Assembly (NCBI GenBank): GCA_963965975.1
Contig: OZ014422.1
Coordinates: forward strand, 5,479,155 to 5,543,154
Origin: Xestospongia bergquistia
Taxonomy: Eukaryota; Porifera; Demospongiae; Haplosclerida; Petrosiidae
DNA: 64,000 nt
Reading direction: 5' to 3'
The translations under genes and the position numbers were made by a program. Shown here in pieces: positions 31,626 through 64,000 of the stretch; the first letter of the stretch is position 1, and each line of letters begins with the position of its first letter. The notes beneath the pieces are model-generated. The model was not told the origin of the DNA, ran no database searches, and saw only the letters and a list, made by a program, of their open reading frames with translations.

Positions 31626-34600
31626 ATGGGTCAGCAGCAGATCAAGCAAGATCAGCCTGCTAATGTAAGTTCTTTACATACATTGTATCAGCTGTTGCTA
31701 TCTTAGGGACTGATTCAAAGTTAAGAACTTGAGTTTTCAGTGTTACTAGCTAAATTTCATTGTCAGGGCTGTTGTAAAAATTGTAAATACCACAACCAGT
31801 ACTTTGCTGTGTATAGTTAATGTTTAAGATTAGGGAGTGGAAATCAGTATTGTCATAATATACACCAATATAGTAACCTCTGTCATATGAATATATCCTG
31901 TTATAGCAATACTGTAATAGAAATGGGAGGGGCTAAGTAGACAAGGTTACAATCCTTTGTCGTTATTTATTCTCTAGAGCTACTATTTACCATTAATTAA
32001 TTACTGATGTATAGTCTAAACATGTTTATCATATATAATATTAGTTTATGACTTCATCTATAACTTTATATCATAGTTATTAGTTCTATATCATTATAGA
32101 CTGATGATCATTATGTTGTTAAGAAGAATGTTACATATCAAGTACCTACTACTACACAGTAAGTACCAGTATATATAAGACGACTAATGAGATGTTACTA
32201 TAGTAACAATATGTATCATCCTTGTATAGAGAGTATTAATAGAGTGTTCCAATCAGAAATATTAATAATATGTAATGATGTAGTACTTAGTACATGTTGT
32301 ATACTGCAGTATAACAGACAAAGTATATACCATCTACTATATCCTCTATAATGTATTATATGATGACTGATATTATCTTGTATTGTCAGACTATCAGTGT
32401 CTCTGCCATTCATTGATGAACCCATCCTTCTCTCTGTGGGAGATAGAATATTTATACCAGTAGAGTTTTGGAAGTTTGTGGCTGGAGTTGTTAACAAAAG
32501 ATTATCAGTACCACCTCCTTGGTTATTACCAGAAGTTGATATCACTGGTACAGTGAGATGGCTAGGAACATTACCTCCTGTTGGTGACAGTCAATATTTT
32601 GCTGGAATAGAAACAGTGAGTATATATACATGTATTGGTAATGTTCACTGACTAAGTCTCATATCACTAGTAGTTTGAGTTTGATGTTATATGTTGTAAT
32701 TTTAATCAGTTTTAGTTTTAAAGATTATCTCACATGTAGTAATAAGTAATAACTGATGTGTGTTTGAATATTCAGATCACATAATATAATGTTATATATA
32801 CAAATTAAGAATGACATTTCAAGTCTAGACTTAAAGATTATTTATCTAATATATTTATTTTATTAACAATGACATTTTATATACATAAATTATAATTGAG
32901 TAATTAAAAGTAGATATTAAGTCACTTCTATTAATATCTCTACAAATTAATATCCTCTTTATTGGATGTTAATAATTCATCTATATCATTAACAAATGAC
33001 AAACTCATTTAAATGTTATAATGTACTAGATCATTGTAATAACAACGATATCTCCTAGGTGATCAGATATATGTATAGTAATTAATATAGAGTGTAAAAC
33101 TTTATATCATAATTTCCTTTGTTATCTTTTAACAGGACACTTCAGTTGCTACTGATAATGAGTACCCTAGTGGTTGCTATGGCGACATTTCTTGTTTTAC
33201 TTGTCCTAAAGGACATGGAGTTTTCCTTCCTGTGGAGTGTGTTGTCTGTTATTCTAAAAATCTAAAAGAGACACCAACACCAGCTTATCCTATGAATGCC
33301 AGACCACATGGTATTGCATTGATTGTTATATGGGAAAATCATCGTGATGGTCGTCTGCTAACAGGAGGACAAGCTAATTCTTCAAAGCTGACAAGTATAT
33401 TCCAGTACTTACAATATTCAGTTCAACACCACACTAATGTTACTAGCACACAAATGATACAACTAGTGGAAGAGATAGCTAGTATGGATCACACAGCTTA
33501 TGACAGCTTTGTCTGTTGTATATTTAGTGATGGACATAACAACCACTATATGCGTTGTAATGATCATCATTTTGTCAATATCTATGAACTAGTAGACAAA
33601 GTACAGCAGTGTCCTACACTTCAAGGAAAACCAAAACTATTTTTTATTAATATTAATCGACGTCATGATAAACGAGCTCCTCCACCTACTCCATACAAGA
33701 TTGGATCAGATACATTCATATTGTGGTCAACTCAAAGAAGAAAAACGTATGGTACTACTAACATTGGGAGTTATCTTACATTAGCTTTAGAGGATGTCTT
33801 CAAATTCAAATCCAAATACACTGATCTCCTGTCAATGGCAACAATTGAAGTACCTACTATTATCAGTATGATTCCACCATTTTTTTCCAGTGTTACAAGC
33901 AGGATTACTGGAAAATGTAGTGAAGTTGAGTCTCAATTAAAATATAAAGTTTTCTTTTTTAATGAAGATGAAGTACCTGGTAAGTATACTACACTATTTG
34001 TTATCTCATTATATGATCACTGATTGTTTTATAGATTATTCTGGTTTACTGGATCATGCCCTCAATGAAGGTTATGTCATTGTTAAGTGGACCAAACTCA
34101 CTCTCTGTGGTCCTCCTGGATCTGGAAAATCATCCATTATAAAGCTTCTCCTCAATGAACCTCCACCTTACACTCATGACAGTACACCAGTGACTGTAGC
34201 ACCTGAAGTAAGAAAGGTAGACATCACTAGTATGACAGCATTAGGTGATCGGTCTATTCAATGTTGGAATAAAGTAGATTATGAGTCACTTAAAGGAATG
34301 GTTGCTCAAACAATGAAGGAAGGATTGATGACTAGAACAATGATTACAGAAGAAGAAATTGAAATACTTGAAGATGATGTCAATCAAGATGTCAATGATG
34401 AAGATATTCATGTTACCTCTACAGTTACCACACTTACCAAAGAAAGTTCTCAGCCAAACAAAACACCTCTGTCATCTCCATCAACACAGGAGGTAGTTCA
34501 ACTCTTACCTATTGTACAGAAGTCTCCTGCTCTATATGAAACACACTGGATCTACTGTATAGATTCAGGTGGTCAGGCTGCATTTATAGATATTGCTCCA

Positions 34601-36690
34601 GCATTATTACATTATAATCCAGTCAATATTCTCACACTCAAGCTAAATGAAAAGCTTGAAGACAAGCCCGAGTTTTTCTTCAGTGTCAAAGGAGAGCGTA
34701 TTGGTCAACCAGTGAAACGACAGATCACACATCTACAACTCCTTGAAGCATCATGTCGTTCATTAGCATCTGTTAATCCACCTGATTTACGTAACATTTA
34801 CATCAATCTTTCCCATAAAGAGCCTCACTTTATAATACTGGGGACATATTATGATAAGATTCGTGAGTGTATTGGTGAGTCATTGGATGATAAAAATGCT
34901 ATTCTCTGGTCAACTTTGGAGAGATTTAGTGAGATGATAGTAAGTTATCGTCAATCTGGTAAGAAGATGATCTTTCCAATCAATGCTATTGGTCGAAATG
35001 AAGAGGAGATTGAAATGGCTGATTTGATTCGTCGTAAGATATGTCGGTCTTACATAGAGGCAGAAATCCCAGCTCGATGGTTTTTATTCCAGCTAGACTT
35101 AGACCAACTCCAGAAGACCTCTCAAACAAAGATTATTAGCAAGTCTGAATGTTTAAGAATTGGTGAGGCTCTCAAGATGGTTTCTCAAGATGTAGAGGCA
35201 GCCTTGATGTACTATCATGATCTTACCATCTTCCTGTACTTCCCTCAAGTCCTTCCCCATGTTGTATTTTTACATCCACAACCATTATTTGATAAGCTAT
35301 CAGAGTTAATCAGTATCTCTTTTGCTGATGCTGTGGATCATTTAGAGGATAAAGGTATCAATATTCCACCAGGTGCTCATGTACAACTCAAAACTGAAGG
35401 AATCTTTCGAGGAGAGTTACTGACATCAGTCTTGTCTCAAGGATTCTCTCGAGAGTTCTCATCAGATGATTTTCTTAAATTAATGGAGAATGTATTTATC
35501 ATTGCTGCTTTACCTCAAGAAGGGAAATACTTTATCCCTTGTGTTCTACCGACTACAACTCTCTCTGAGGACTTGAGATCTATTTTCAATAAGGACACAG
35601 ACCCTCTTATTCTAACGTGGGGTATGAGCCCTCTACCTCAAGGACTATTTCCTGCATTAGTTGTCAATCTCCTCCGTCTAAAATGTTCCATCAAGTTTGA
35701 TCTCCATCCTGGCAAGCAACAATATCGTAATGCTATTCGTCTAACATGTACTGGTCTGGGAGGTGCAGTTCTATTAGTAGATGCTATATACTGGTTGGAG
35801 ATATATTACTCTGGTCCTGCAGAGAAATGCTATATTATTCGAAAATCAATCAAAGAAGGAATTGATGCTGTTGTCAAGAAATTTCAATATAAGCCAATTC
35901 TTTCAATACCTCAAGAGAACTTTCATTGTACAATACATAAAACAACTGATCATCTTTGTTGTCCAAATGATACAATGAAGAAAGTGACATGTTGTGATGA
36001 TGGTGCTTCTGTAGATGATATTAACCCATTACGTCAAGGTGTCTGGCTAAAAGAAATAGTCACTGATAATCCTATTACTGATCAAGGTTAGTGAGTATAT
36101 AATATAAGTATTGAGTATTATAAAGTATATTAATTATAATACTTGTATCAGATGTAATGTTGTATATATATAACCTCAATGACTTCCCAGTTTCCATTTA
36201 AACAGAGTCTATCAAAATTGTCAGTTGTATATAATTAATACTGATGACACACCCCCAGTTGTTAGTGTTCTCAACTAGTTTTGTCTATACATGTATACCA
36301 ATAGTATAGTTATACTTGTTTATATAATACAGTTTATTTTATTATATTATTATTAATATATCCTTTTATTTAATTTCCATATTAGGTAATATAGCTGAAG
36401 GAGATATATATGTATCTACTTTATCAGATCAAGTTTTGGATCAACAACCTTCCATTCTAGAAATAACTACACATGCTAGAACTGCAGAGTGGAATCAATT
36501 GGGTGTGCAACTAGGACTGAATGATGTGGATTTAGCTGGATGTCATGACTGTACCAGGATATATCAGTTATGGATACAGGAGAATGCTGATAATGCAACA
36601 AGGAGAAATTTAATATCTGCTTTAATAGCTATTAGACAGAAAGATGTAGTACAAAAATACAAAGATTATCTGAAAACAGTTTCTAAGTGA
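31626..36690 (+). CDS. Array copy 1: CAP-Gly-like / pseudo-caspase / Roc-COR-like GTPase / Death domain protein
   Basis: Exons 31626-31664, 32100-32158, 32390-32615, 33136-33979, 34035-36086 and 36386-36690 join in phase to 1174 aa. Order of parts: short N-terminus MGQQQIKQ; CAP-Gly-like fold at about 50-145 (GTVRWLG, then FTCPKGHGVFLPVE) with the GKNDG loop replaced by SGCYGD; caspase-like domain about 159-345 (DHTAYDSFVCC, LQGKPKLFFI), where the catalytic His position is Asp 240 (SDG for SHG) and the catalytic Cys position is Asn 282; GTPase with P-loop GPPGSGKS (415-422), G3-type DSGGQ (566-570) and a GTYYDK segment near 659 at the G4 position; COR-like region about 738-892; Death domain about 1090-1170 (LGVQLGLNDVDLAGC). 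A long acidic Ser/Thr-rich insert separates P-loop and DSGGQ. The likely role is a signalling switch or sensor, not a protease; this is inference. It is the array member nearest TADA1. Confidence 0.85.
32194..32207. promoter_or_regulatory. Perfect 14-bp palindrome, X-box-like (copy 1, intron 2)
   Basis: GTTACTATAGTAAC is a perfect inverted repeat with X-box-type half-sites. The same 14 bases occur at the same place in all five copies and once more before copy 4. Confidence 0.4.
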
Positions 36691-37330
36691 ATCTAAGGTA
36701 TTTTTCAAAATACCTCTACAATAATGATTTTGTCTGATGGCAAACCTTTTCCCTTTAGACTAGACCTTTTTAATTTTCTTATACTGTACCTTTAATTTGA
36801 CTACTTTATTTACCATTTGAGTAATGTCTTTACTTTTTATATTGTTTATTTGACTGATCAAATTGTGTCTTTCTCTTTTAAAGTTGATTATTCTGAATAT
36901 CAATGTAAGAATTTTTATCTTATGTTAAATATTTGACTTAGCTTTGAACGTTTGTTCATTTATTATCTATAGTACATGTATTGTTTTGTATTGTTTATTA
37001 TAGTGAACTATTTGATTTGACTAATTGTGCCCTTTCTTTGTAATATTGATTACTTTATAATTGTGTGATTATTTTTGCAACAAAAATTTAACCATTATCA
37101 TTGATGTTCATGACAAGTACTATATCATTATTATCATGTAGACAGATGATACCTTTAATACTATGAACTTAGTGTAGAATGTTATGTACTATTATAATTT
37201 TGTCAATAACCACATTTTGTCTTGTCTCCAAGTTTCTTTGACAGATTTATCTTCTATCCTATTTCCTATTCATTATGTATCCATTCTTCCACATTATTTA
37301 TCCATTTGTTCTCTTTATATGTCCATTTAG
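36691..37330. other. 3' flank of copy 1 and unit 1/2 junction
   Basis: AT-rich and without coding content. It is almost the same as 43579-44216 behind copy 2. The junction to sequence copied from TADA1 intron 2 lies at about 37255-37262 (TATTTCCTATTCATTATG). Confidence 0.65.
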
Positions 37331-37577
37331 TAAAGCATTACAAACAGAAGCTTTAGAAGCTGAACACATGTCCATGATGTCTCATGAACCTCTCTCAAAA
37401 TCTATTACTTTATATAGTTTAATAGATACATTACAAGTTAATGGTACACTATGTATACCAGATCATAGTGTATGTCAATGTATTATAGAAAGAATACTAG
37501 CTAGATTATGGCATCCTAGTAGAGAAGAGTTATTGTGTAGACAGTCAGTAGAACAATGGCAGAAACAACTTCATTAA
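37331..37577 (+). pseudogene. TADA1: Duplicated last exon of TADA1 (first extra copy)
   Basis: 247 bases, as long as the TADA1 exon at 31217-31463, with the same acceptor TTTAG, an open frame, stop codon and AATAAA. Amino-acid changes are few (Ile to Leu in NGTLC, Thr to Ser in DHSVC). No TADA1 exons 1-2 accompany it, so it is an orphan exon unless the real TADA1 transcript splices to it over copy 1. Confidence 0.85.
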
Positions 37578-37660
37578 TAAATTCTGTAATCTTGTAATGT
37601 TGAATCATTTCAGTTAACATGACAACTTATTTAAATATCAGTAACAACCATCTTTTGCGG

Positions 37661-37675: not shown

Positions 37676-38312
37676 AACTAATAATCGTCTGCGAGCCTTG
37701 AGATCATACTGACCATTCTTTTTCGATTCTTTTTCTTGTTCTGTCGAAATGGGTCAGCAGCAGATCAAGCAAGATCAGCCTGCTAATGTAAGTTCTCTAC
37801 ATACATTGTATCAGCTGTTGCTATCTTAGGGACTGATTCAAAGTTAAGAACTTGAGTTTTCAGTGTTACTAGCTAAATTTCATTGTCAGGGTTGTTGTAG
37901 AAATTGTAAATACCACAACCAGTACTTTGCTGTGTATAGTTAATGTTTAAGATTAGGGAGTGGAAATCAGTATTGTCATAATATACACCAATATATTAAC
38001 TTCTATATCCTGTGATAGGTATTTACAATACTGTAATACAAATGGGAGGGGCTGGATAGACAAGATAACAATCCTTTGTAGTTATTTATTCTCTCGAGCT
38101 CCTATTTAACATTAAGTGACTACTGATGTGTAGTCTAAATGTGTTTATCATATATAATATTAGTTTATGACTTCATTTATAACTTTATATCATAGTTATT
38201 AGTTCTATATCATTATAGACTGATGATCATTATGTTGTTAAGAAGAATATTACATATCAAGTACCTACTACTACACAGTAAGTACCAGTATATATAAGAT
38301 GACTAATGAGAT

Positions 38313-38326
38313 GTTACTATAGTAAC
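38313..38326. promoter_or_regulatory. Perfect 14-bp palindrome, X-box-like (copy 2, intron 2)
   Basis: GTTACTATAGTAAC, same position as in copy 1. Confidence 0.4.
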
Positions 38327-38915
38327 AATATGTATCATACTTGTATAGAGAGTATTAATAGAGTGTTCCAGTTAGAAATATTAATAATATGTAATGATGT
38401 AGTACTTAGTACATGTTGTATACTGCAGTATAACAGACAAAGTATATACCATCTACTATATCCTCTATAATGTATTATATGATGACTGATATTATCTTGT
38501 ATTGTCAGACTATCAGTGTCTCTGCCATTTATTAATGAACCCATTCTTCTCTCTGTGGGAGATAGAGTATTTATACCAGTAGGGTTTTGGAACTATACAA
38601 CTGGAATTGTTGATAAATGGGAAGGAGCTCCTTGGTTATTATCTAATATACCAGAACTTGGTATCACTGGTACAGTGAGATGGCTAGGAACATTACCTCC
38701 TGTTGGTGACAGTCAATATTTTGCTGGAATAGAAACAGTGAGTATATATACATGTATTGGTAATGTTCACTGACTAAGTCTCATATCACTAGTAGTTTGA
38801 GTTTGATGTTATATGTTGTAATTTTAATCAGTTTTAGTTTTAAAGATTATCTCACATGTAGTAATAAGTAATAACTGATGTATGTTTGAATGTTGAGATC
38901 ACATAATATAATGTT

Positions 38916-39469
38916 AGATTGGGAAACTTTCGTGTTACAAAAGTTTCATGTAAAAAATTAACATGTTAAAAAAATTTCGGACACAAGAGGCGTGTACGAA
39001 AATTTATTAATTCCTAAATTTGCAACATGTAACACATTGAACAAGAGTATGATTATTTTATTCATGTATATAATTTGAAAAAAGAAATGCAAGGCAGCAG
39101 TAACATCATGATGACTAGCATATTTACCAACTTTAGCTCGTATGCCTGAACTTTACAGCTGATAAGGTCCACATTTTCTGGACACACTTTAATTTCATGG
39201 CCTTCCTAGCTTTATCATTTGCTCGAGCAATTGCCTGTGGCTGTATGGAGGATGATAAAACCTTTTGGATAATCTGTAAGTTTCAGATATCTCAAAAGAG
39301 CTATCTTAGTTGTATCTATACTCTCTACACTTCAAACACTTCCTACACTACCACATAACATGTGGACTACATATCATAAATATTTCAATGTATAATAATT
39401 TTAGTGTAATTAATTTTCTTACATTGTCCAACATTCAAACTTTTTTTAACAACGAAACTTTCCCGATCT
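38916..39469. mobile_element. Non-autonomous TIR element (MITE-like), copy 2 intron 3
   Basis: About 554 bp, inserted relative to copies 1 and 5, where the flanks (AATGTTA and TATATACAAATTAAG) meet directly. The ends are inverted repeats of about 22 bases: AGATTGGGAAACTTTCGTG at the left, and the right end reads AGATCGGGAAAGTTTCGTTG on the other strand. A short duplicated flank is suggested (ATGTTA left, ATGATA right) but not exact. No transposase frame was found. A stretch on the minus strand around 39120-39270 stays open for about 45 codons but matches nothing I know. Confidence 0.8.
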
Positions 39470-42400
39470 ATGATATATACAAATTAAGAATGATATTTTA
39501 AGTCTGGACTTAAAGATTATTTACCTAATAGATTTATTTAATTAACAATGACATTTTATATACAACGCAAGTTATAATTGAGTAATTAAAGCAGGTATTA
39601 AGTCACTTCTATTGATATCTCTACAAATTAATATCCTCTTTATTGGATGTTAATAATTTAACTGTATCATTAACAAATGATAAACTCATTTAAATGTTAT
39701 AATGTACTAGATCATTGTAATAACAATGATATCTCCTAGGTGACCAGATATATGTATAGTAATTAATATAGAGTGTAAAACTTTATATCATAATTTCCTC
39801 TGTTATCTTTTTACAGGATGCTGAAATTGCTAGAGATAATGAGTACCCTAGTGGTTTCTATGGTGATGTTTCTTGTTTTACTTGTCCTAAAGGACATGGA
39901 TTTTTTCTTCCTGTGGAGTGTATTGTCTGTTACTCTAAAAATCTAAAAGAGACACCAACACCAGCTTATCCTATGAATGCCAGACCACATGGTATTGCAT
40001 TGGTTGTTGTAAAGGAAAATCATAGTGATGGTCGTCCTTACAAAGGAGGACAAGCTAATTCTTCAATGTTAACAAGTATTTTCCAGTACTTACAATATTC
40101 AGTTCAACACCACACTAATGTTACTAGTACACAAATGATACAACTAGTGGAAGAGATAGCTAGTATGGATCACACAGCTTATGACAGCTTTGTCTGTTGT
40201 ATATTTGGTGATGGACGTAATGACCACTATATGTATTGTAATGATCATTGTTTTGTTAATATTTATGAACTAGTAGACAAAGTACAGCAATGTCCTACAC
40301 TTCAAGGAAAACCAAAACTATTTTTCATTGACATTAATCGAAATCAACATAAACAAGCTCCTCCACCTACTTCATACAAGATTGGATCAGATACATTCAT
40401 ATTGTGGTCAACTCAAAGAGGACAAAGAATCGGCACCATTAACAGTGGGAGTTTTCTTACATTAGCTTTAGAGAATGTCTTCAAATTCGAATCCAAATAC
40501 ACTGATCTCCTGTCAATGGCAATAATTGAAGTATCTACTGTTATCAGTATGATTCCTCCATTTGTTTATGACAACAAGATGGTTGGATTTTGTAGTCAAG
40601 TTGAATCTCAATTAAAATATAAAGTTTTCTTTTTTAATGAAGATGAAGTACCTGGTAAGTATACTACACTATTTGTTATCTCATTATATGATCACTGATT
40701 GTTTTATAGATTATTCTGGTTTACTGGATCATGCCCTCAATGAAGGTTATGTCATTGTTAAGTGGACCAAACTCACTCTCTGTGGTCCTCCTGGATCTGG
40801 AAAATCATCCATTATAAAGCTCCTGCTCAATGAACCTCCACCTCATACTCATGACAGTACACCAGTGACTGTAGCACCTGAAGTAAGAAAGGTAGACATC
40901 ACTAGTATAACAGCATTAGGTGATCGGTCTATTCAATGTTGGAATAAAGTAGATTATGAGTCTCTTAAAGGAATGGTCGCTCAAACAATGAAAGTAGGAT
41001 TGAAGACTAGAACAATGATTACAGAAGAAGAAATTGAAATACATGAAGATGATGTTGATCAAGATGTCAATGATGAAGATATTCATGTTACCTCTACAGT
41101 TACCACACCTACCAAAGAAAGTTCTCAGCCAAACAAAACACTTCTGTCATCTCCATCAACACAGGAGGTAGTTCAACTTTTACCTATTGTACAGAAGTCT
41201 CCTGCTCTATATGAAACACACTGGATCTACTGTGTAGATTCAGGTGGTCAGGCTGCATTTATAGATATTGCTCCAGCATTATTACATTATAATCCAGTCA
41301 ATATTCTCACACTCAAGCTAAATGAAAAGCTTAAAGACAAACCCAAGTTCTTTTTCAGTGTCAAAGGAGAGTGTATTGGTCAACCAGTTGAACGACAGAT
41401 CACACATCTACAACTCCTTGAAGCATCATGTCGTTCATTAGCATCTGTTAATCCACCTGATTTACGTAACATTTACATCAACCTTTCCCATAAAGAGCCT
41501 CACTTTATAGTACTGGGTACATATTTGGATAAGATTGATGAGTGTAGTGGTGAGTCATTGGATGATAAAAATGCCATTCTCTGGTCAACTTTGGAGAGAT
41601 TTAGTGAGATGATAGTAAGTTATCGTCAATGTGGTGAAATGATGATCTTTCCAATCAATGCTATTGCTCGAGGTGAAGAGGAGATTAAAATGGCTGATTT
41701 GATTCGTCGTAAGATATGTCTTACATAGAGGCAGAAATCCCAGCTCGATGGTTTTTGTTCCAACTAGACTTAGACCAACTCCAGAAGACCTCTCAAACAA
41801 AGATTATTAGCAAGTCTGAATGTTTAAGAATTGGTGAGGCTCTCAAGATGGTTCCTCAAGACGTAGAGGCAGCCTTGATGTACTATCATGATCTTACCAT
41901 CTTCCTGTACTTTCCTCAAGTCCTTCCCCATGTTGTATTTTTACATCCACAACCATTATTTGATAAGCTATCAGAGTTAATCAGTATCTCTTTTGCTGAT
42001 GCTGTGGATCATTTAGAAGATAAAGGTATCAATATTCCACCAGGTGCTCATAAACAACTCAAAACTGAAGGAATCTTTCAAGGAGAGTTACTGACATCAG
42101 TCTTGTCTCAAGGATTCTCTCCAGAGTTCTCATCAGATGATTTTCTTAAATTAATGGAGAATGTATTTATCATTGCTGCTTTACCTCAAGAAGGGAAGTA
42201 TTTTATCCCTTGTGTTCTACCGACAACTACTCTCTCTGAGTCATTGAAGTGTATTTTTAGTATGAACACAGACCCTCTTGTTCTAACATGGGGTATGTGT
42301 CCTCTACCTCAAGGACTATTTCCTGCATTAGTTGTCAATCTCCTCCGTCTAAAATGTTCCATCAAGTTTGATCTCCAACCTTCAATACCAAGTAGCAATC

Positions 42401-43578
42401 TACAATATCGTAATGCTATTCGTCTAACATGTACTGGTCTGGGAGGTGCAGTTCTATTAGTAGATGCTATTTACTGGTTAGAGATATATTACTCTGGTCC
42501 TGCAGAGAAATGCTATATTATTCGAAAATCGATCAAAGAAGGAATTGATGCTGTTGTCAAGAAATTTCGATATAAACCAATTCTTTCAATACCTCAAGAG
42601 AACTTTCATTGCACAATACATAAAACAACTGATCATCTTTGTTGTCCAAATGATACAATGAAGAAAGTGACATGTTGTGATGATGGTGCTTCTGTAGGTG
42701 ATATTAACCCATTACGTCAAGGTGTCTGGCTAAAAGAAATGGTCACTGATAGTCCTATTACTGATCAAGGTTAGTGAGTATATAATATAAGTATTGAGTA
42801 TTATAAAGTTATTAATTATAATACTTGTATCAGATGTAATGTTGTATATATATAACCTCAGACTATCTAGTACTGATATAAGGTTACTATAAGTACTTTA
42901 TAAATACTATAACAATTACTATATACTAGACTCTGTTATATATATTACTTCCTTATATGGTATTATTGGTTTGTTAATGAAGTAGACAGCTATACATGAC
43001 AACAATTTATTTCTGTGTGCTATTATGTTAAATACCAGGTTAATTGAATATATAAATGTTTATTGAATGACTTCACAGTTTCCATTTAAACAGGGTCTAT
43101 CAAAATTGTCACTTGTATATAATTAATACTGATGACACACCCACAGTTGTTAGTGGTCTCAACTAGTTTTGTCTATACATGTATACCAATAGTATAGTTA
43201 TACTTGTTTATATAATACAGTTCATTTTATTATATTATTATTAATATATCCTTTTATTTAATTTCCATATTAGGTAATATAGCTGAAGGAGATATATATG
43301 TATCTACTTTATCAGATCAAGTTTTGGATCAGCAACCTTCCATTCTAGAAATAACTACACATGCTAGAACTGCAGAGTGGAATCGATTGGGTGTGCAACT
43401 AGGACTGAATGATGTGGATTTAGCTGGATGTCATGACTGCACCAGGATGTATCAGTTATGGATACAGGAGAATGCTGATAATGCAACGAGGAGGAATTTA
43501 ATATCTGCTTTAATAGCTATTAGACAGAAAGATGTAGTACAAAAGTACAAAGATTATCTGAAAACAGTTTCTAAGTGA

Positions 43579-44216
43579 ATCTAAGGAATTTTCCAAAATA
43601 CCTCTACAATAATGATTTTGTCTGATGGCAAACCTTTTCCCTTTAGACTAGACCTTTTAAATTTTCTTATACAGTACCTTTAATTTGACTACTTTATTTA
43701 CCATTTGAGTAATGTCTTTACTTTTTATATTGTTTATTTGACTGATCAAATTGTGTCTTTCTCTTTTAAAGTTGATTATTCTGAATATCAATGTAAGAAT
43801 TTTTATCTTATATTAAATATTTGACTTAGCTTTGAATGTTTGTTCATTTATTATCTATAGTACATGTATTGTTTTGTATTGTTTATTATAGTGAACTATT
43901 TGATTTGACTAATTGTCCCCTTTCTTTGTAATATTGATTACTTTTATAATTGTGTGATTATTTTTGCAACAAAAATTTAACTATTATCATTGAATGTTCA
44001 TGAAAAGTACTATATCATTATTATCATGTAGACAGATGATACCTTTAATACTATGAACTTAGTGTAGAATGTTATCTACTATTATAATTTTGTCAATAAC
44101 CACATTTTGTCTTGTCTCCAAGTTTCTTTGACAGATTCATCTATCCATTTCCTATTCATTATGTATCCATTCTTCCACATTATTCATCCATTTGTTCTCT
44201 TTATATGTCCATTTAG
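43579..44216. other. 3' flank of copy 2 and unit 2/3 junction
   Basis: AT-rich, no coding content; near-copy of 36691-37330. The junction to TADA1-derived sequence is at about 44136. Confidence 0.65.
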
Positions 44217-44463: not shown

Positions 44464-44546
44464 TAAATTCTGTAATCTTGTAATGTTGAAACATTTCAGT
44501 TAACATGATAACTTATTTAAATATCAGTAACAACCATCTTTTGCGG

Positions 44547-44645: not shown

Positions 44646-47600
44646 ATGGGTCAGCGACAGAGCAAGCAAGATCAACCTGCTAATGTAAGTTTTCTATATA
44701 TAGTGTATCAGTTAGTGCTATCCTATGAAGAAGATATGACTAACTGATTCAAAGTTGAGAACTTGAGTTAGTCAGTGTTACTAGCTAAGTTTCATTGTCA
44801 GGACTGTTGTAAATATTGTAAATGCTGTAACTCAGCTGAACGTAGATTTATAAGCAGCCACAACCCAACTCAAATTTATATTAAATCCTATAATTTCTTT
44901 ATACAACTCTTACCATAGTACAGTAGCTATTAGTACAGTAGGTAATTTACTGTATATAGTTATTGTATTAGGAAGTGGAAATCAGTATTATCATGATATA
45001 TATAACAAAATATTAACATTCTGTCATACACTCTTTGTCTATCCATATATATTATCTGTTTAATTTGAGAATAACCATTAACTAAACGTTATAACTCGTA
45101 GTCATTCTCAATATGAATAGGATATAATATCTGTAGTTTGCCCATAGAAGTGGGAGGGGTTGAGTAGATAATTCCTATGTAGTCCTTCATTTTAACATTA
45201 AGTAACTACTGATATATAGTCTAAATATGTTTATTATAGATAATATTAGTTTATGACTTCATCTATAACTTTATATCATAGTTATTAGTTCTATATCATT
45301 ATAGACTGATGATCATTATGTTGTTAAGAAGAATATTACATATGAAGTACCTACTACTACACAGTAAGTACCAGTATATATAATGAGATGTTACTATAGT
45401 AACAATATGTATCATCCTTGTATAGAGAGTATTAATAGAGTGTTCTAATTAGAAATATTAATAGTAATGTAGTACTTAGTACATGTTGTATACTGCAGTA
45501 TAACATACAAAGTATATACCATCTACTATATCCTCTAAAATGTATTATATGATGACTGATATTATCTTGTATTGTCAGACTATCAGTGTCTCTGCCATTC
45601 ATTGATGAACACATCCTTCTCTCTGTGGGAGATAGAGTATTTATACCAGTAGAGTTTTGGAAATATGTAACTGGATATGTTAATAAATGGGAAGGAGCTC
45701 TTTGGTTATTACCTAAAGTTGATATCACTGGTACAGTGAGATGGCTAGGAACATTACCTCCTGTTGGTGACGATCAATATTTTGCTGGAATAGAAACAGT
45801 GAGTATATATACATGTATTGGTAATGTTCACTGACTAAGTCTCATATCACTAGTAGTTTGAGTTTGATGTTATATGTTGTAATTTTAATCAGTTTTAGTT
45901 TTAAAGATTATCTCACATGTAGTAATAAGTAATAACTGATGTGTGTTTGAATGTTCAGATCACATAATATAATGTTAGATTGGGAAACTTTCGTGTTACA
46001 AAAGTTTCATGTAAAAATTAACATGTTAAAAAAATTTTGGACACAAGAGGCGTGTACGAAAATTTATTAATTCCTAAATTTGCAACATGTAACACATCAA
46101 ACAAGTGTATGGTATAGATTATTTTATTCATGTATATAATTCAAAAAAAGAAATGCAAGGCAGCAGTAACATCATGATGACTAGCGTATTTACCAACTTT
46201 AGCTCGTATGCCTGAACTTTACAGCTGATAAGGTCCACATTTTCTGGACACACTAATTTCATGGCCTTCCTAGCTTTATCATTTGCCCGAGCAATTGCCT
46301 GTGGCTGTATGGAGGATGATAGAACCTTTTGGATAATCCGTAAGTTTCAGATATCTCAAAAGAGCTATCTTAGTTATATCTATACTCTCTACACTTCAAA
46401 CACTTCCTACACTACCACATAACATGTGGACTACATATCATAAATATTTCAATGTATAATAATTTTAGTGTAATTAATTTTCTTACATTGTCCAACATTC
46501 TAACTTTTTTTAACAACGAAACTTTCCCAATCTACGATATATACAAATTAAGAATGATATTTCAAGTCTGGACTTAAAGATTATTTACCTAATAGATTTA
46601 TTTTATTAACAATGACATTTTATATACATAAGTTATAATTGAGTAATTAAAAGTAGATATTAAGTCACTTCTATTAATATCTCTACAAATTAATATCCTC
46701 TTTATTAGATGTTAATAATTCAACTATATCATTAACAAATAACAAACTCATTTAAATGTTATAATGTACTAGATCATTGTAATAACAATGATATCTCCTA
46801 AGTGATCATATATATGTATAGTAATTAATATAGAGTGTAAAACTTTATATCATAATTTCCTCTGTTATCTTTTAACAGGATGCTCAAGTTGCTACTGATA
46901 ATAAGTACCCTAGTGGTTGCTATGGTGATGTTTCTTGTTTTACTTGTCCTAAAGGACATGGAGTTTTTCTTCCTGTGGAGTGTGTTGTCCGTTACTCTAA
47001 AAATCTAAAAGAGACACCAACACCAGCTTATCCTATGAATGCCAGACCACATGGTATTGCATTGGTTGTTGTACATGAAAATAGCTCTGATGGTCATCCA
47101 TACATAGGAGGACAAGCTAATTCTTCAAAGTTTACAAGTATTTTCCAGTACTTACAATATTCAGTTCAACACCACACTGATGTTACTAGTGCACAAATGA
47201 TACAACTAGTGGAAGAGATAGCTAGTATGGATCACACAGCTTATGACAGTTTTGTCTGTTATATATTTAGTGGTGGACTTAATGACCATTATATGCAATG
47301 TAATGATCGTTGTCATGTCAATATCTATGAACTAGTAGACAAAATACAGCAGTGTCCTACACTTCAAGGAAAACCAAAACTATTTTTCATTGACATTAAT
47401 CGACGTCATGATAAACAAGCTCCTCCACCTACTCCATACAAGATTGGATCAGATACACTCATATTGTGGTCAACTCAAAGAGGGAAAAAAGTTGGCACCA
47501 ATAGCAGTGGGAGTGTGCTTACATTAGCTTTAGAGGATGTCTTCAAATTCAAATCCAAATACACTGACCTCTTGTCAATGGTAACAATTGAAGTACCTGA

Positions 47601-50600: not shown

Positions 50601-51181
50601 CAATTACTAACAACTACTGGTCTTGAGATAAGGGGATAATTTTACCACTGAGCTAATTAATAAAATTTTCAAAGTGACATACATATGTTGTTAAAATTGA
50701 TGATTTTTTTGTTTGATTATAGTCCTTTTCAATAAAGAAGACAATGAAGATTATAACATTCATGAAGATACTCTTAATCAAAGTGAGTTTATGATTAAGT
50801 GTTTATTTTATTTAATATAGCATCTTGGAACATGATATGTGTAATTCTAACAAGTGTTGACAATTGAAATATCGTTATATTTTCTTATTTTGTATAGCAC
50901 ACTATTCAGATATAATGGAGGATATACAAGAAATAGCTGTTGATTATAAAAGACTAGCAGCTGCTTTAAAGTTACCAATTGCTACAGTAAGAGCTATTGA
51001 ATATCATCGTAGAAATTGTCCTCCTTGGAATGCTCTAAGTGATGTCATTACTGAATGGTTAAAGTGGAACTGTGATTGTAAGACTTCAGAGGGATATCCT
51101 AACAGACGATGGTTAGTAAATGCTGTGAAATCTATTAACAATGAACTTGGTACTAGATTAGAAGAAAAATATAATGTTTAG
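44646..51181 (+). CDS. Array copy 3: CAP-Gly-like / pseudo-caspase / Roc-COR-like GTPase / second Death-domain type
   Basis: Exons 44646-44684, 45305-45363, 45579-45798, 46879-47722, 47778-49841, 50219-50275, 50723-50782 and 50898-51181 give 1208 aa. The N-terminus MGQRQSKQ fits an N-myristoylation motif (Gly2, Ser6, Lys7). The CAP-Gly-like and caspase-like parts are as in copy 1 but with loop changes (SGG at the catalytic His position, IDINRR at the Cys position). GTPase and COR-like parts are almost identical to copy 1. After exon 5 the C-terminus is new: two short acidic exons with similar wording (LNQEDNDIQEDIL and FNKEDNEDYNIHEDTLNQ), then a different Death-like domain (DYKRLAAALKLPIATVRAIE, GYPNRRWLVNAVKSINN). 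The swap point lies in intron 5 near 49943, where similarity to copy 2 stops. Confidence 0.85.
45390..45403. promoter_or_regulatory. Perfect 14-bp palindrome, X-box-like (copy 3, intron 2)
   Basis: GTTACTATAGTAAC, same position as in copies 1 and 2. Confidence 0.4.
45977..46533. mobile_element. Non-autonomous TIR element (MITE-like), copy 3 intron 3
   Basis: About 557 bp, the same element at the same place as in copy 2. Here the right terminal repeat reads AGATTGGGAAAGTTTCG on the other strand, nearly the perfect partner of the left end. It was carried along by duplication, not inserted anew. Confidence 0.8.
50005..50027. repeat. (TA)n microsatellite
   Basis: A pure TA run in intron 5 of copy 3, close to the place where similarity to copy 2 ends. 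Confidence 0.85.
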
Positions 51182-52664: not shown

Positions 52665-52749
52665 CACTTTAATATCGACCTTTTGCTTCGACCCTTGTCT
52701 TCATACTGACCATTCTTTTTGATTCTTTATCTTATTATAGTATGTTGAA

Positions 52750-55700
52750 ATGGGTCAGCGACAGAGCAAGCAAGATAAACCTGCTAATGTAAGTTTTCTA
52801 TATATAGTGTATCAGTTAGTGCTATCTTATGAAGAAGATATGACTAACTGATTCAAAGTTGAGAACTTGAGTTAGTCAGTGTTACTAGCTAAGTTTCATT
52901 GTCAAGACTGTTGTAAATATTGTAAATGCTGTAACTCAGCTGAATGTAGATTTATAAGCAGCCACAACCCAACTCAAATTTATATTAAATCCTATAATAT
53001 CTTTATACAACTCTTACCATAGTACAGTAGGTAATTTGCTGTATATAGTTATTGTATTAGGAAGTGGAAATCAGTATTATCATGATATATATAACAAAAT
53101 ATTAACATTCTGTCATATATATATACACTCTTTGTCTATCCATATATATTATTTGAGAATAACCATTAACTAAACGTTATAACTCGTAGTCATTCTCAAT
53201 GTGAATAGGATATAATAATCTGTAGTTTCCCCATAGAAGTGGGAGGGGTTGAGTAGATAATTCCTTTGTAGTCCTTCATTTTAACATTAAGTAATTACTG
53301 ATGTATAGTCTAAATGTTTTTATCATAGATAATATTAGTTTATGACTTCATTTATAACTTTATATCATAGTTATTAGTTCTATATCATTATAGACTGATG
53401 ATCATTATGTTGTTAAGAAGAATGTTACATATCAAGTACCTACTACTACACAGTAAGTACCAGTATATATAAGATGACTAATGAGATGTTACTATAGTAA
53501 CAATATGTATCATCCTTGTATAGAGAGTATTAATAGAGTGTTCCAATTAGAAATATTAATAATATATAATGATGTAGTACTTAGTACATGTTGTATACTG
53601 CAATATAACAGACAAAGTATATACCATCTACTATATCCTCTATAATGTATTATATGATGACTGATATTATCTTGTATTGTCAGACTATCAGTGTCTTTGC
53701 CATTCATTGATGAACCCATCCTTCTCTCTGTGGGAGATAGAGTATTTATACCAGTAGAGCTTTGGAAGTATGTAGCTGGATTGGTTAATAAATGGAAAGG
53801 AGCTCCTTGGTTATCATCTAATCTACGTGAAGTTAATATCACTGGTACAGTGAGATGGCTAGGAACATTACCTCCTGTTGGTGACAGTCAATATTTTGCT
53901 GGAATAGAAACAGTGAGTATATATACATGTATTGGTAATGTTCACTGACTAAGTCTCATATCACTAGTAGTTTGAGTTTGATGTTATATGTTGTAATTTT
54001 AATCAGTTTTAGTTTTAAAGATTATCTCACATGTAGTAATAAGTAATAACTGATGTGTGTTTGAATGTTGAGATCATATAATATAATGTTAGATTGGGAA
54101 ACTTTTGCGTTACAAAGTTTCATGTTTAAAATTAACATGTTAAAAAAATTTCGGACACAAGAGGCGTTTACGAAAATTTATTAATTCCTAAATTTGCAAC
54201 ATGTAACACATTGAACAAGAGTATGGTATAGATTATTTTATTCATGTATATAATTCGAAAAAAGAAATGCAAGGCAGCAGTAACATCATGATGACTAGCG
54301 TATTTACCAACTTTAGCTCGTATGCCTGAACTTTACAGCTGATAAGGTCCACATTTTCTGGACACACTTTAATTTCATGGCCTTCCTAACTTTATCATTT
54401 ACCTGAGCAATTGCCTGTGGCTGTATGGAGGATGATAGAACCTTTTGGATAATCTGTAAGTTTCAGATATCTCAAAAGAGCTATCTTAGTTGTATCTATA
54501 CTCTCTACACTTCAAACACTTCCTACACCACCACATAACATGTGGACTACATATCATAAATATTTCAATGTATAATAATTTAAGTGTAATTAATTTTATT
54601 ACATTGTCCAACATTCAAACTTTTTTTAACAACGAAACTTTCCCGATCTATGATATATACAAATTAAGAATGATATTTCAAGTCTGGACTTAAAGATTAT
54701 TTACCTAATAGATTTATTTTATTAACAATGACATTTTATATACATAATGTTATAATTGAGTAATTAAAAGCAGATGTTAAGTCACTTCTATTAATATTTC
54801 TACAAATTAATATCCTCTTTATTAAATGTTAATAATTTAACTATATCATTAACAAATAACAAACTCATTTAAATGTTATAATGTACTAGATCATTGTAAT
54901 AACAATGATATCTCCTAGGTGATCAGATATATGTATAGTAATTAATATAGAGTGTAAAACTTTATATCATAATTTCCTCTGTTATCTTTTAACAGGATGC
55001 TCAAGTTGTTACAGATATTAAGTACCCTAGTGGTTGCTATGGTGATGTTTCTTGTTTTACTTGTCCTAAAGGACATGGAGTTTTCCTTCCTGTGGAGTTT
55101 GTTGTCCGTTACTCTAAAAATCTAAAAGAGATACCAACACCAGCTTATCCTATGAATGCTAGACCACATGGTATTGCATTGGTTGTTGTAAAGGAAAATC
55201 TTCCTGATGGTCGTCTATACAGAGGAGGACAAGGTAATTCTTCAAAGTTAACAAGTATTTTCCAGTACTTACAATATTCAGTTCAACACCAAACTGATGT
55301 TACTAGTACACAAATGATACAACTAGTGGAAGAGATAGCTAGTATGGATCACACAACTTATGACAGCTTTGTCTGTTGTATATCATATGATGGACGTAAT
55401 GACCACTATATGTATTGTAATGATCGTTGTTTTGTCAATATCTATGAACTAGTAGACAAAGTACAGCAGTGTCCTACACTTCAAGGAAAACCAAAACTAT
55501 TTTTCATTGATATTAATCGACTTCACTATAAACAAGCTCCTCCACCTACTCCATACAAGATTGGATCAGATACATTCATATTGTGGTCAACTCAAAGAGG
55601 AAAGAAAACTAGTGGCACTACAAAAGGTAGCATTTTTATAAAAGCTTTAGAGGTTGTCCTCAAATTCAAATCGAAACATCTTGACCTCCTGTCAATGGCA

Positions 55701-58560
55701 ACAATTGAAGTACCTACTATTATCAGTATAATTCCTCCATACATTTCCAAAACAACAGGAATGATTTCAGGACAATGTAGTGAAGTTGAGTCTCAATTAA
55801 AATATAAAGTTTTCTTTTTTAATGAAGTTGAAGTACCTGGTAAGTATACTACACTATTTGTTATCTCATTATATGATCACTGATTGTTTTATAGATTATT
55901 CTGGTTTACTGGATCATGCCCTCAATGAAGGTTATGTCATTGTTAAGTGGACTAAACTCACTCTCTGCGGTCCTCCTGGGTCTGGAAAGTCATCTGTTAT
56001 AAAGCTCCTACTCAATGAACCTCCACCTTACACTCATGACAGTACACCAGTGACTACAGCACCTGAAGTAAGAAAGGTAGACATCACTAGTATGACAACA
56101 TTAGGTGATCGGTCTATTCAATGTTGGAATAAAGTAGATTATGAGTCTCTTAAAGGAATGGTCGCTCAAACAATGAAAGTAGGATTGAAGACTAGAACAA
56201 TGATTACAGAAGAAGAAATTGAAATACTTGAAGATGATGTTGATCAAGATGTCAATGATGAAGATATTCATGTTACCTCTACAGTTACCACACCTACCAA
56301 AGAAAGTTCTCAGCCAAACAAAACACCTCTGTCATCTCCATCAACACAGGAGGTAGTTCAACTCTTACCTATTGTACAGAAGTCTCCTGCTCTATATGAA
56401 ACACACTGGATCTACTGTGTAGATTCAGGTGGTCAGGCTGCATTTATAGATATTGCTCCAGCATTATTACATTATAATCCAGTCAATATTCTCACACTCA
56501 AGCTAAATGAAAAGCTTAAAGACAAACCCAAGTTCTTTTTCAGTGTCAAAGGAGAGCGTATTGGTCAACCAGTTGAACGACAGATCACACATCTACAACT
56601 CCTTGAAGCATCATGTCGTTCATTAGTGTCTGTTAATCCACCTGATTTACGTAACATTTACATCAATCTTTCCCATAAAGAGCCTCACTTTATAGTACTG
56701 GGTACATATTTGGATAAGATTGATGAGTGTAGTGAGTCATTGGATGATAAAAATGGCATTCTCTGGTCAACTTTGGAGAGATTTAGTGAGATGATAGTAA
56801 GTTATCGTCAATCTGGTGAGATGATGATCTTTCCAATCAATGCTATTGCTCGAGGTGAAGAGGAGATTAAAATGGCTGATTTGATTCGTCGTAAGATATG
56901 TCAGTCTTACATAGAGGCAGAAATCCCAGCTCGATGGTTTTTATTCCAACTAGACTTAGACCAACTCCAGAAGACCTCTAAAACAAAGATTATTAGCAAG
57001 TCTGAATGTTTAAGACTTGGTGAGGCTCTCAAGATGGTTCCTCAAGACGTAGAGGCAGCCTTGATGTACTATCATGATCTTACCATCTTCCTGTACTTTC
57101 CTCAAGTCCTTCCCCATGTTGTATTTTTACATCCACAACCATTATTTGATAAGCTATCAGAGTTAATCAGTATCTCTTTTGCTGATGCCGTGGATCATTT
57201 AGAAGTTAAAGGTATCAATATTCCACCAGGTGCTCATAAACAACTCAAAACTGAAGGAATCTTTCAAAGAGAGTTACTGACATCAGTCTTGTCTCAAGGA
57301 TTCTCTCCAGAGTTCTCATCAGGCGATTTTCTTAAATTAATGGAGAATGTATTTATCATTGCTGCTTTACCTCAAGAAGGAAAGTATTTTATCCCTTGTG
57401 TTCTACCGACTACAACTCTCTCTGAGTCCTTGAAGTGTATTTTTAGTAAGAACACAGACCCTCTTGTTCTGACGTGGGGTATGTGTCCTCTACCTCAAGG
57501 ACTATTTCCTGCATTAGTTGTCAATCTCCTCCGTCTAAAATGTTCCATCAAGTTTGATCTCCAACCTTCAATACCAAGTAGCAATCTACAATATCGTAAT
57601 GCTATTCGTTTAACATGTACTGGTCTGGGAGGTGCAGTTCTATTAGTAGATGCTATTTACTGGTTAGAGATATATTACTCTGGTCCTGGAGAGAAATGCT
57701 ATATTATTCGAAAATCGATCAAAGAAGGAATTGATGCTGTTGTCAAGAAATTTCGATTTAAACCAATTCTTTCAATACCTCAAGAGAACTTTCATTGTAC
57801 AATACATAAAACAACTGATCATCTTTGTTGTCCAAACGATACAATGAAGAAAGTGACATGTTGTGATGATGGTGCTTCTGTAGATGATATTAACCCATTA
57901 CGTCAAGGTGTCTGGCTAAAAAGAACAGTTTGCAGTGAGCCAATTTTAGAACAAGGTTAGTACTAGTTATTGTGACACTTAGATATTTTGACTGCATGAT
58001 TATTGTAACAATTATACTGGTCCTGAGATAATAGGATAATTTTTACAATTTTTTAACTGAAATATGTTGTTAAAATTAATGATTTTTTTGTTTGATTATA
58101 GTCCTTCTCAATAAAGAAGACAATGAAGATTATAATATTCATAAAGATACTCTTAATCAAAGTGAGTTTATGATTAAGTGTTTATTTTATATAATATAAT
58201 ATCTTGGAATATGAAACGTGTAATTCTAACAAGTGTTGACAATTGAAATATTGTTATATTTTCTTATTTTGTATAGCACACTATTCAGATATAATGGAGG
58301 ACATACAAGAAATAGCTGTTGATTATAGAAGACTAGCAGCTGCTTTAAAGTTACCAATTGCTACAGTAAGAGCTATTGAATATCATCGTAGAAATTGTCA
58401 TCCTTGGGATGCTCTAAGTGATGTCATTACTGAGTGGTTAAAGCAGAACTGTGATTGTAAGACTTCAGAGGGATATCCTAACAGACGATGGTTAGTGAAT
58501 GCTGTGAAATCTATTAACAATGAACTTGGTACTAGATTAGAGACAGAGTACAATGTTTAA
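52750..58560 (+). CDS. Array copy 4: CAP-Gly-like / pseudo-caspase / Roc-COR-like GTPase / second Death-domain type
   Basis: Exons 52750-52788, 53394-53452, 53684-53912, 54996-55839, 55895-57955, 58102-58161 and 58277-58560 join to 1191 aa. The start MGQRQSKQ again fits N-myristoylation. The caspase-like part has YDG at the catalytic His site and IDINRL at the Cys site, so it is inactive. GTPase motifs (GPPGSGKS, DSGGQ, GTYLDK) are intact. The end of exon 5 differs from the other copies (KRTVCSEPILEQG for KEMVTDSPITDQG), and the first of the two acidic linker exons of copy 3 is missing, so a recombination or deletion joined exon 5 directly to the second linker. The Death-like domain is the copy 3 type (DYRRLAAALKLPIATVRAIE). 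Confidence 0.85.
53488..53501. promoter_or_regulatory. Perfect 14-bp palindrome, X-box-like (copy 4, intron 2)
   Basis: GTTACTATAGTAAC, same position as in the other copies. Confidence 0.4.
54091..54649. mobile_element. Non-autonomous TIR element (MITE-like), copy 4 intron 3
   Basis: About 559 bp, same site and same ends as in copies 2 and 3, with a few further substitutions (left end AGATTGGGAAACTTTTGCG). Confidence 0.8.
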
Positions 58561-62560: not shown

Positions 62561-64000
62561 ACTGATGATCATTATGTTGTTAAGAAGAATGTTACATATC
62601 AAGTACCTACTACTACACAGTAAGTACCAGTATATATAAGATGACTAATGAGATGTTACTATAGTAACAATATATATCATCCTTGTATAGAGAGTATTAA
62701 TAGAGTGTTCTAATTAGAAATATTAATAATATGTAATGATGTAGTACTTAGTACATGTTGTATACTGCAGTATAACAGACAAAGTATATACCATCTACTA
62801 TATCCTCTATAATGTATTATATGATGACTGATATTATCTTGTATTGTCAGACTACCAGTGTCTCTGCCATTCATTGATGAACCCATCCTTCTCTCTGTGG
62901 GAGATAGAATATTAATACCAGTAGAGGTTTGGAAGTATACAACTGGAATTGTTGATAAATGGGAAGGAGCTCCTTGGTTATCATCTAATCTACGTGAAGT
63001 TGATATCACTGGTACAGTGAGATGGCTAGGAACATTACCTCCTGTTGGTGACAGTCAATATTTTGCTGGAATAGAAACAGTGAGTATATATACATGTATT
63101 GGTAATGTTCACTGACTAAGTCTCATATCACTAGTAGTTTGAGTTTGATGTTATATGTTGTAATTTTAATAAGTTTTAGTTTTAAAGATTATCTCACATG
63201 TAGTAATAAGTAATAACTGATGTATGTTTGAATGTTCAGATTATATAATATAATGTTATATATACAAATTAACAATGATATTTCAAGTCTGGACTTAAAG
63301 ATTATTTACCTAATAGATTTATTTAATTAACAATGACATTTTATATACATAAGTTATAATTGAGTAATTAAAAGTAGATATTTAGTCGCTTCTAGTAATA
63401 TCTCTACAAATTAATATCCTCTTTATTGGATGTTAATAATTTAACTATATCATTAACAAACGATAAAGTCATTCAAATGTTGTAATTTACTTTATATCAT
63501 AATTTCCTCTGTTATATTAACAGGACATTCCAGTTGCTACTGATAATGAGTATCCCAGTGGTTGCTATGGTGATCTTTCCTGTTTTACTTGTCCCAAGGG
63601 ACATGGAGTTTTCCTTCCTGTGGAGTGTGTTGTCCATTACTCTAAACATCTAAAAGAGACACCAACACCAGCTTATCTTATGAATGCCAGACCACATGGT
63701 ATTGCATTGATTGTTGCAAAGGAAAATCATCCTGATGGTCGTCCAGTTAAAGGAGGACAAGCTAATTCTTTAATGTTAACAAGTATTTTCCAGTACTTAC
63801 AATATTCAGTTCAACACCACACTAATGTTACTAGTACACAAATGATACAACTAATGGAAAAGATAGCTAGTATGGATCACACAACTTATGACAGCTTTGT
63901 CTGTTATATATCATATGATGGACGTAATGACCACTATATACAATGTAATAATCGGTGTCATGTCAATATCTATGAACTAGTAGACAAAGTACAGCAGTGT
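62561..64000 (+). CDS. Array copy 5 (partial, lacks first exon, runs off the window)
   Basis: Exons 62561-62619, 62851-63079 and 63524 to the window end match exons 2, 3 and 4 of the other copies; all splice sites are kept and the frame stays open to 64000. The sequence covers the CAP-Gly-like part (GTVRWLG) and the caspase-like part up to the region just before the missing Cys position; the catalytic His site reads YDG. No MGQ-type exon 1 and no conserved promoter block are found upstream; similarity to the other units starts at about 62440, inside intron 1. Intron 3 is short and lacks the TIR element. Its likely first exons are those of the VAP-like gene. Confidence 0.8.
62655..62668. promoter_or_regulatory. 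Perfect 14-bp palindrome, X-box-like (copy 5, intron 2)
   Basis: GTTACTATAGTAAC, same position as in the other four copies. Confidence 0.4.

Follow-up and report, generated by a model that had tools for sequence, protein, structure and literature searches.

A sponge gene array combining a CAP-Gly domain, a catalytically dead caspase-like part, a Roc-like GTPase with COR and death-type tails

The array and its copies

We analysed a window of 64 000 nucleotides from the sponge Xestospongia bergquistia (contig OZ014422.1, called C12 below; C12:5479155-5543154), in a genome of 146.5 Mb in 21 contigs. From position 31626 on, the window holds an array of repeated genes whose predicted proteins join a CAP-Gly domain, a caspase-like part devoid of catalytic residues, a GTPase with a COR region and a C-terminal tail. 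The repeat units are spaced every 6-9 kb, with exon 1 at 31626, 37749, 44646 and 52750 and, in the fifth unit, exon 2 at 62561. The gene models, in window positions, are as follows.

31626..31664, plus strand: copy 1 exon 1, splice model (sequence MGQQQIKQDQPAN); counterparts at 37749, 44646 and 52750
32100..32158, plus strand: copy 1 exon 2, splice model; present in five copies, copy 1 included
32390..32615, plus strand: copy 1 exon 3, variable stretch and N-terminal half of CAP-Gly (splice model, Pfam)
33136..33979, plus strand: copy 1 exon 4, C-terminal half of CAP-Gly and pseudo-caspase (Peptidase_C14, 1e-20; caspase-3 6wi4 by profile, 6.8e-25)
34035..36086, plus strand: copy 1 exon 5, P-loop/DSGGQ GTPase and COR (COR-A, 4.4e-10; G1/G3 residues invariant in 25 rows)
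36386..36690, plus strand: copy 1 exon 6, type A Death domain and stop (Death, 7.3e-7)
37749..43578, plus strand: copy 2, exon 1 to the end of exon 6; exon 5 frameshifted near 41719
44646..51181, plus strand: copy 3, with a type B tail at 50897-51178
52750..58560, plus strand: copy 4, with a type B tail at 58279-58557
62561..64000, plus strand: copy 5, exon 2 at 62561, exon 3 at 62851-63079, exon 4 from 63524; continues past the window to about 65052, where it has a type B tail

Spliced according to the model, the six exons of copy 1 encode 1174 amino acids (aa) with no internal stop. Pfam domains follow each other in this protein in the order CAP_GLY 85-143 (E = 1.7e-7; 31.5 bits, cut-off 26.5), Peptidase_C14 167-347 (1.3e-19), COR-A 735-894 (7.9e-10; 39.2 bits, cut-off 35.3) and Death 1105-1168 (5e-5); all four pass the curated cut-offs. 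This is the four-part order that a first-pass annotation had read from the sequence, and it recurs on C12 and on contig C11.

The same annotation had described five tandem genes. Five repeat units are indeed present, but copy 2 carries a 4-nt deletion near 41719, which shifts the frame of exon 5, and is probably a pseudogene; and copy 5, read past the end of the window by joining two loci (L044 and L059), keeps the caspase exon, with no GTPase exon found by tblastn. Splice sites, among them the exon 4 donor, are kept; after the donor come a short in-frame piece that by eye resembles the end of exon 5 and then the type B tail (L044:1501-3029 on C12, which extends beyond the window); the predicted product would consist of CAP-Gly, pseudo-caspase and tail.

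Searches of the genome listed at least 67 matches to the caspase exon, some of them with stops, and at least 66 to the GTPase (65 of 624 first-look candidates scored); genome-wide family counts are lower bounds. Among the matches listed, longer close matches of the caspase exon lay on C12 (5393-5543 kb), C11 (6283-6474 kb) and C13. Exons 3 (CAP-Gly), 4 (caspase) and 5 (GTPase) follow each other in this order across the 24 merged contigs, with few exceptions: exon 3 has no match in two plus-strand loci on C11, whose sequence covers only 156 and 400 bases in front of exon 4, and exon 5 is missing from copy 5. The gaps between exons 3 and 4 and between exons 4 and 5 were inspected in 26 copies on C12 and C11; they have GT/AG-type borders, save for a GC donor in copy m5428 and three copies (C11e, C11g and C11m) whose BLAST-cut ends do not fall on AG. 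Since exon order and such borders recur across related arrays, chance open reading frames (ORFs) were rejected as an explanation. Tblastn over pattern-matching stretches only found no relative of the GTPase alignment in prokaryote genomes (201 stretches) and none of the caspase alignment in viral contigs (112 stretches).

One could argue that the CAP-Gly/caspase exons and the GTPase exons are separate genes, transcribed apart. Read unspliced, the exon 4 frame of copy 1 continues 15 codons into the intron and stops, and upstream of exon 5 its frame stays open and includes ATGs, so a two-gene arrangement is compatible with the sequence alone; furthermore, copy 5 has the caspase without the GTPase, and a gene on contig C1 (L070) has the GTPase without this caspase. 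Yet the intron between exons 4 and 5 of copy 1 measures 55 nt with matching phase, and similar GT/AG borders are found in 25 of the 26 copies; we regard separate genes as very improbable.

Parts of the predicted protein

In a profile search of PDB with exon 4 the best match was the caspase-3 chain listed above; 181 sequences had E <= 0.01, with caspases among the best 60 of these 181. By this alignment the catalytic His corresponds to position 132 of exon 4 and the catalytic Cys to position 174. We aligned 24 copies drawn from the 67 caspase-exon matches (five of the window array, eight from the minus strand of C12 and 11 from C11); L050, which has a stop, was the only fetched match left out. 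The residue at position 132 is D, G, P or A in these copies, that at position 174 N, S, H, D, I or G; the catalytic His is kept in 0/24 and the catalytic Cys in 0/24, the Arg after the Cys (R175) in 24/24. With both catalytic residues absent throughout, an active protease was rejected, as the first-pass description of an inactive caspase-like domain had it. True caspases of the same genome have both [ST]HG and QACRG in 10/10 (best 10 of 99 Peptidase_C14 places listed); these ten also have a variable-length segment between the large and the small part that is missing from the array family. Region 262-281 is conserved, with 1.7 distinct residues per column versus 5.8 in loop L1; conservation of this last-strand region would fit a kept dimer interface.

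For the CAP-Gly part the best chain in the PDB profile search had a weak E of 0.074, and the matches listed were CAP-Gly proteins. The GKNDG motif, which we take to be the tubulin-tail-binding motif of CAP-Gly, was absent by eye from this part in 24 aligned rows; copy 1 has YPSGCYGD there. Elsewhere in the genome, C6:8377614-8637181 holds 20 of the 39 CAP-Gly matches listed genome-wide, which suggests a second CAP-Gly gene cluster.

The GTPase of copy 1 has both a P-loop, GPPGSGKS, and DSGGQ, presumably the G1 and G3 GTPase motifs; G25, G30, K31, S32 and D176-S-G-G-Q180 are invariant across 25 aligned rows. Pfam Roc (PF08477) had no match up to E = 1 in copy 1, where the P-loop region gave only sub-threshold NTPase matches, and a genome-wide Roc search had none inside the window among the matches listed. 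A PDB profile search with the GTPase alignment returned two matches, each an RNA polymerase with E = 1.1. L071, a Roc-like protein encoded elsewhere in this genome that does match Pfam Roc, is locally similar to the window copies over 55 residues around the P-loop (E = 5e-4 in a set of 26 sequences). We therefore base the name Roc-like on the linkage to COR and on the motifs, Pfam Roc itself giving no match; the Pfam search that the first-pass annotation had proposed as a check recovered CAP-Gly, Peptidase_C14, COR-A and Death, but not Roc.

Neither a kinase nor an ankyrin domain, and neither NACHT nor LRR, matched copy 1 in Pfam up to E = 1. With NACHT and LRR both unmatched, NLR identity of copy 1 was rejected; judged by its domains and motifs, the C-terminal half is nearest to the Roc-COR of ROCO/DAPK-type proteins, not to NACHT. 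The earlier proposal of an NLR-like switch protein, with the GTPase replacing NACHT, keeps its switch; the protein is better described as a ROCO (Roc-COR) protein. In the C1 relative, L070, ankyrin repeats lie upstream of the GTPase in the same orientation (Ank, 9.2e-8 and 4.6e-10); its COR-A scores 30.5 bits, below the cut-off.

The tails of the window copies are of two types: type A in copies 1 and 2 (98% identical) and type B in copies 3, 4 and 5. Compared with Pfam Death, type B gave E = 0.12 in copy 4 and no match in copy 3, and its profile comparison with Death domains gave E = 0.36; type B was rejected as a proven Death domain. Of the Death-type domains that had been assigned to copies 1-4, those of copy 1 and of its near-identical counterpart in copy 2 stand, those of copies 3 and 4 do not. 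At least two more tail types lie downstream of exon 5 in relatives: representatives of types C and D match Death at 8.6e-5 and 5.1e-5, barely above the cut-off, and the tail of copy m5391 at only 0.092. No such tail was found within 1.5 kb downstream in C11c, C11f, C11h and C11k (ORFs of at least 62 aa). On the plus strand of C11, two loci (L033 and L032) have downstream of the GTPase exon two consecutive similar exons that look Death-like by eye. The death-domain content of the genome is very large (PF00531: 983 first-look candidates and at least 150 matches, 150/150 scored).

Variation within the family and a candidate receptor

Mean identity of exon 4 is 80% among window copies, 79% between window copies and C12 minus-strand copies and 79% among minus-strand copies; for exon 5 the corresponding values are 94%, 68% and 89%. 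In exon 5 the minus-strand array resembles C11 (75%) more than it does the window array (68%); in exon 4 it is far from C11 (59%). Three minus-strand copies (L012-L014) match copy 1 at 86-95% identity over the end of exon 5 and at 66-67% over the remainder of that exon; L012 and L014 carry a type B tail, L013 (m5391) a C-like one. From these contrasts and tracts we conclude that, as far as sequence comparison goes, the predicted sensor, switch and tail have partly separate histories.

Pairwise ratios of nonsynonymous to synonymous substitution rates (dN/dS) among window copies were 0.38-0.46 in exon 5 (3 pairs) and 0.54-4.25 in exon 3 (10 pairs, few sites). In 13 C12 copies (78 pairs) we compared five loop regions of the caspase part with its remainder, using 230 circular shifts. 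The proportion of nonsynonymous differences (pN) in the loops was 4.9 times that of the rest, rank 1 of 230 shifts. Divided by the proportion of synonymous differences (pS), it gave 1.30 for L1, 1.37 for the His loop, 1.12 for the Cys loop, 0.89 for L3 and 1.02 for L4, and 0.15-0.38 in several framework parts.

Codon site models agreed for the two array groups: M2a was preferred over M1a for exon 4 in C12 (13 copies; twice the log-likelihood difference, 2dlnL, 96.2; ~11% of codons at w, the dN/dS ratio, of 4.1) and in C11 (13 of the 14 minus-strand copies, one with a stop being excluded; 2dlnL 81.1; 12% of codons at w 3.5). Exon 3 of C12 also gave a signal (13 copies, p 5.5e-10); the CAP-Gly half of exon 4 gave none in either group (p 1 and 0.78), and caspase segments with their own trees were positive in 6/6 cases (p 0.016 to 1.5e-10). 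Under M0, w was 0.33-0.35 for the GTPase versus 0.58-0.59 for exon 4.

Exon 4 sites with posterior >0.95 were (i) in C12, positions 66, 70, 75, 131, 145, 180, 205, 207, 208, 209, 213, 216, 228 and 249; (ii) in C11, on copy 1 numbering, to which 11/12 sites map, positions 70, 75, 76, 134, 140, 144, 184, 202, 210, 219 and 254. The groove loops, which in true caspases shape the active-site groove and here cover 65 of 233 positions, contain 11/14 of the C12 sites (p 7e-5) and 8/11 of the C11 sites (p 0.002). Site posteriors of the two groups correlate (r 0.32, equalled by 0/279 shifts). By eye in the HMM alignment, position 75 falls on the presumed S1-pocket arginine, 131 adjoins the catalytic His and 205-213 lie in what we take to be the S2-S4 pocket loop. 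On these patterns the N-terminal half resembles a sensor that is diversifying under selection, in line with the role of sensor or partner-binding module that the first-pass annotation had given it; the signal lies in exon 3 and the caspase loops, is missing from the CAP-Gly half of exon 4 and is less in the GTPase. The GTPase, more alike within arrays, behaves like a conserved switch, and the tails like exchangeable outputs.

We give roughly even chances to a receptor in which the groove of the dead caspase would serve as the variable sensor and Roc-COR as the switch, with signalling through the tail. Such genes would encode switch proteins of ROCO type with CAP-Gly and a catalytically dead caspase in the place of the usual LRR or ankyrin sensor. 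The dead groove might bind variable ligands, either self/non-self partners or caspase inhibitors or proteases of microbial origin; this would release the Roc-COR GTPase, which would dimerise or change its nucleotide state, and the tail could then recruit death-fold adaptors and caspases. Copy 5, without a GTPase, might act as an unswitched adaptor or as a decoy. These steps, from groove binding over GTPase switching to death-fold recruitment, we infer from ROCO and death-domain biology.

As a special case of this receptor, the dead caspase could be an integrated decoy, baiting microbial inhibitors or proteases of animal caspases, whose docking fires the receptor. The variation is located where inhibitors presumably dock on true caspases, and plant NLRs with integrated decoys offer what we take to be an analogy. 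However, a good bait should keep the pocket features of true caspases, and position 75, aligned with the S1-pocket arginine, is R in only 6/24 copies; we consider the decoy rather unlikely.

Several observations weigh against the receptor reading. Over the whole of exon 4, pairwise dN/dS among window copies is 0.61-1.04 (10 pairs). M1a and M2a were run in our own implementation with branch lengths from M0. The loop borders follow the PDB alignment and caspase-3 numbering and were drawn only after inspection of the alignment, so that the p-values for sites in loops are generous. Exon 5 also yields M2a signals, with 2dlnL 9.7 (p 0.008) in C12 (11 copies; copy 2, frameshifted, and copy 5, without exon 5, excluded) and 71.6 in C11 (12/14 copies; two truncated at the locus end excluded); the C11 value drops to 3.1-15.8 per segment with separate trees (p 0.013, 0.024, 0.21 and 0.0004), and much of that signal may be recombination. 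The type B tails are only weakly Death-like. Finally, all comparisons of family members, caspases and selection were made within one genome.

Pooled loops have pN 0.249 versus pS 0.232 (ratio 1.07); relaxed constraint might produce such a ratio too, a further point against the receptor. Relaxation would be expected if the protein were a regulator resembling c-FLIP, its dead caspase using the conserved last strand to pair with true caspases and tuning cell death, with loops free to vary since a pocket is not needed. The conservation of region 262-281, presumably as a dimer interface would be conserved, the loss of both catalytic residues, and copy 5 as a protein of caspase and tail fit such a role as well. 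We take c-FLIP itself to be alike in that it, too, is a death-fold protein whose caspase domain is catalytically dead, and different in having DEDs in place of CAP-Gly and GTPase and in not forming a hypervariable array. Relaxation, however, should leave w close to 1, and both array groups have a class near 4; dozens of diversified array copies would be unusual for a core regulator; we judge this explanation unlikely.

Loop pS is itself 2.1 times higher than in the rest (rank 3 of 230 shifts), so that the contrast is due in part to older divergence or to gene conversion of the framework, again to the detriment of a diversified sensor. An ordinary lineage-specific expansion of ROCO genes, in which loops seem fast because gene conversion homogenises the remainder, would account for this, for the visible recombination tracts and for the broken copies (copy 2 and those with stops). 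In null simulations with four trees (7 replicates) 2dlnL ranged from 0.5 to 18.3, with 3/7 above 5.99, and with one tree (7 replicates) from 0 to 8.3, with 1/7 above it; they were fitted with fewer optimisation steps than the real data. Recombination matters, yet the nulls fell short of 96 in these few runs. The rise of loop pN exceeds that of pS, and segments given their own trees still show the signal, which is above the recombination nulls that were run; an ordinary expansion seems to us fairly improbable.

Known systems and genomic surroundings

Proteins of the DAPK1 type have the order ankyrin-Roc-COR-Death, in DAPK with a kinase domain ahead of the ankyrins. ROCO proteins with a Death domain are known from DAPK1 (PMC6337361) and Trichoplax (PMC4104024), and early animals have Roc-COR fused to CARD, death or TIR domains, in Trichoplax ROCO genes (PMC4104024) and in actiniarian NG1 and NG3 (PMC5094078). 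The first-pass annotation had correctly named the parts as known from death or immune signalling, but these existing fusions of ROCO with Death only in part. With DAPK1 (PMC6337361, accessible text) the array family shares Roc-COR followed by a C-terminal Death domain, the L070 relative having ankyrins upstream of its GTPase-COR; unlike DAPK1 it has no kinase, CAP-Gly and dead caspase replace kinase and ankyrins, and it forms arrays of fast-changing copies. With the Trichoplax (PMC4104024) and actiniarian (PMC5094078) genes it shares Roc-COR with death-type domains in early animals; no CAP-Gly or caspase-domain fusion is mentioned for those in the available text.

Brown algal LRR-ROCO proteins are candidate immune receptors with diversifying selection at putative ligand-binding sites and with exon shuffling (PMC11378527, accessible text). 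The likeness extends to a Roc-COR switch coupled to a diversifying sensor; the algal sensor is an LRR and the described LRR-ROC-COR layout has no Death domain, whereas here CAP-Gly and pseudo-caspase occupy that place. Among sponges, the NLR repertoire of Dysidea avara is likewise an expansion of death-type receptors, with CASc and COR in the domain list of a figure legend; unlike the array family, those receptors are built on NACHT and LRR, unmatched in copy 1 (PMC12909245, accessible text). The TRADD-N expansion of Amphimedon is also a large sponge family mixing death-fold, caspase and other domains; unlike here, its core is TRADD-N, the caspase is a potential enzymatic effector and CAP-Gly is unmentioned in the main text (PMC8195603, accessible text).

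Titles and abstracts of the literature searched, mostly open-access, contain no fusion of CAP-Gly, dead caspase, Roc-COR and death tail (cf. PMC8242945, accessible text), and the term CAP-Gly has 0 occurrences in the main texts of the related ROCO and sponge receptor papers searched for it. The first-pass statement that no named family has all four parts is not contradicted by this literature, a scope outside which the named protein databases lie. ROCO-death fusions and diversifying ROCO receptors being known already, the caspase part is the new point: its catalytic residues are gone and its loops change fast.

With slightly less than even confidence, we propose an animal receptor class using a dead protease fold as a hypervariable recognition module for intracellular immunity or allorecognition; framework and presumed dimer strand would be fixed and five active-site loops diversified, and the GTPase switch and several exchangeable death-type tails would have had different histories from this module. 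LRR, Ig or lectin folds are the usual basis of variable immune recognition. If the proposal is true, the caspase fold as variable recognition on a ROCO switch would be a separate invention that couples recognition directly to cell-death machinery. It would also offer a candidate, open to testing, for how early animals recognise non-self or self inside their cells: a loop swap should alter the trigger.

Upstream of the array region lies an armadillo gene (Arm, 5.8e-11) with a single long exon at 17194-20505, which we take to be probably APC-like. A tRNA search of the 64-kb window found none. The array region begins directly after a TADA1-like gene (SAGA-Tad1, 3.7e-17, in an upstream exon), whose last exon recurs in the array:

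31215..31464, plus strand: terminal coding exon of the TADA1-like gene; repeat copies at 37329-37578 and 44215-44464

The orphan TADA1-like last exons at 37329 and 44215 are 98.4% identical. Because this last coding exon sits in the repeat unit, duplication of the array probably began inside the TADA1-like gene.

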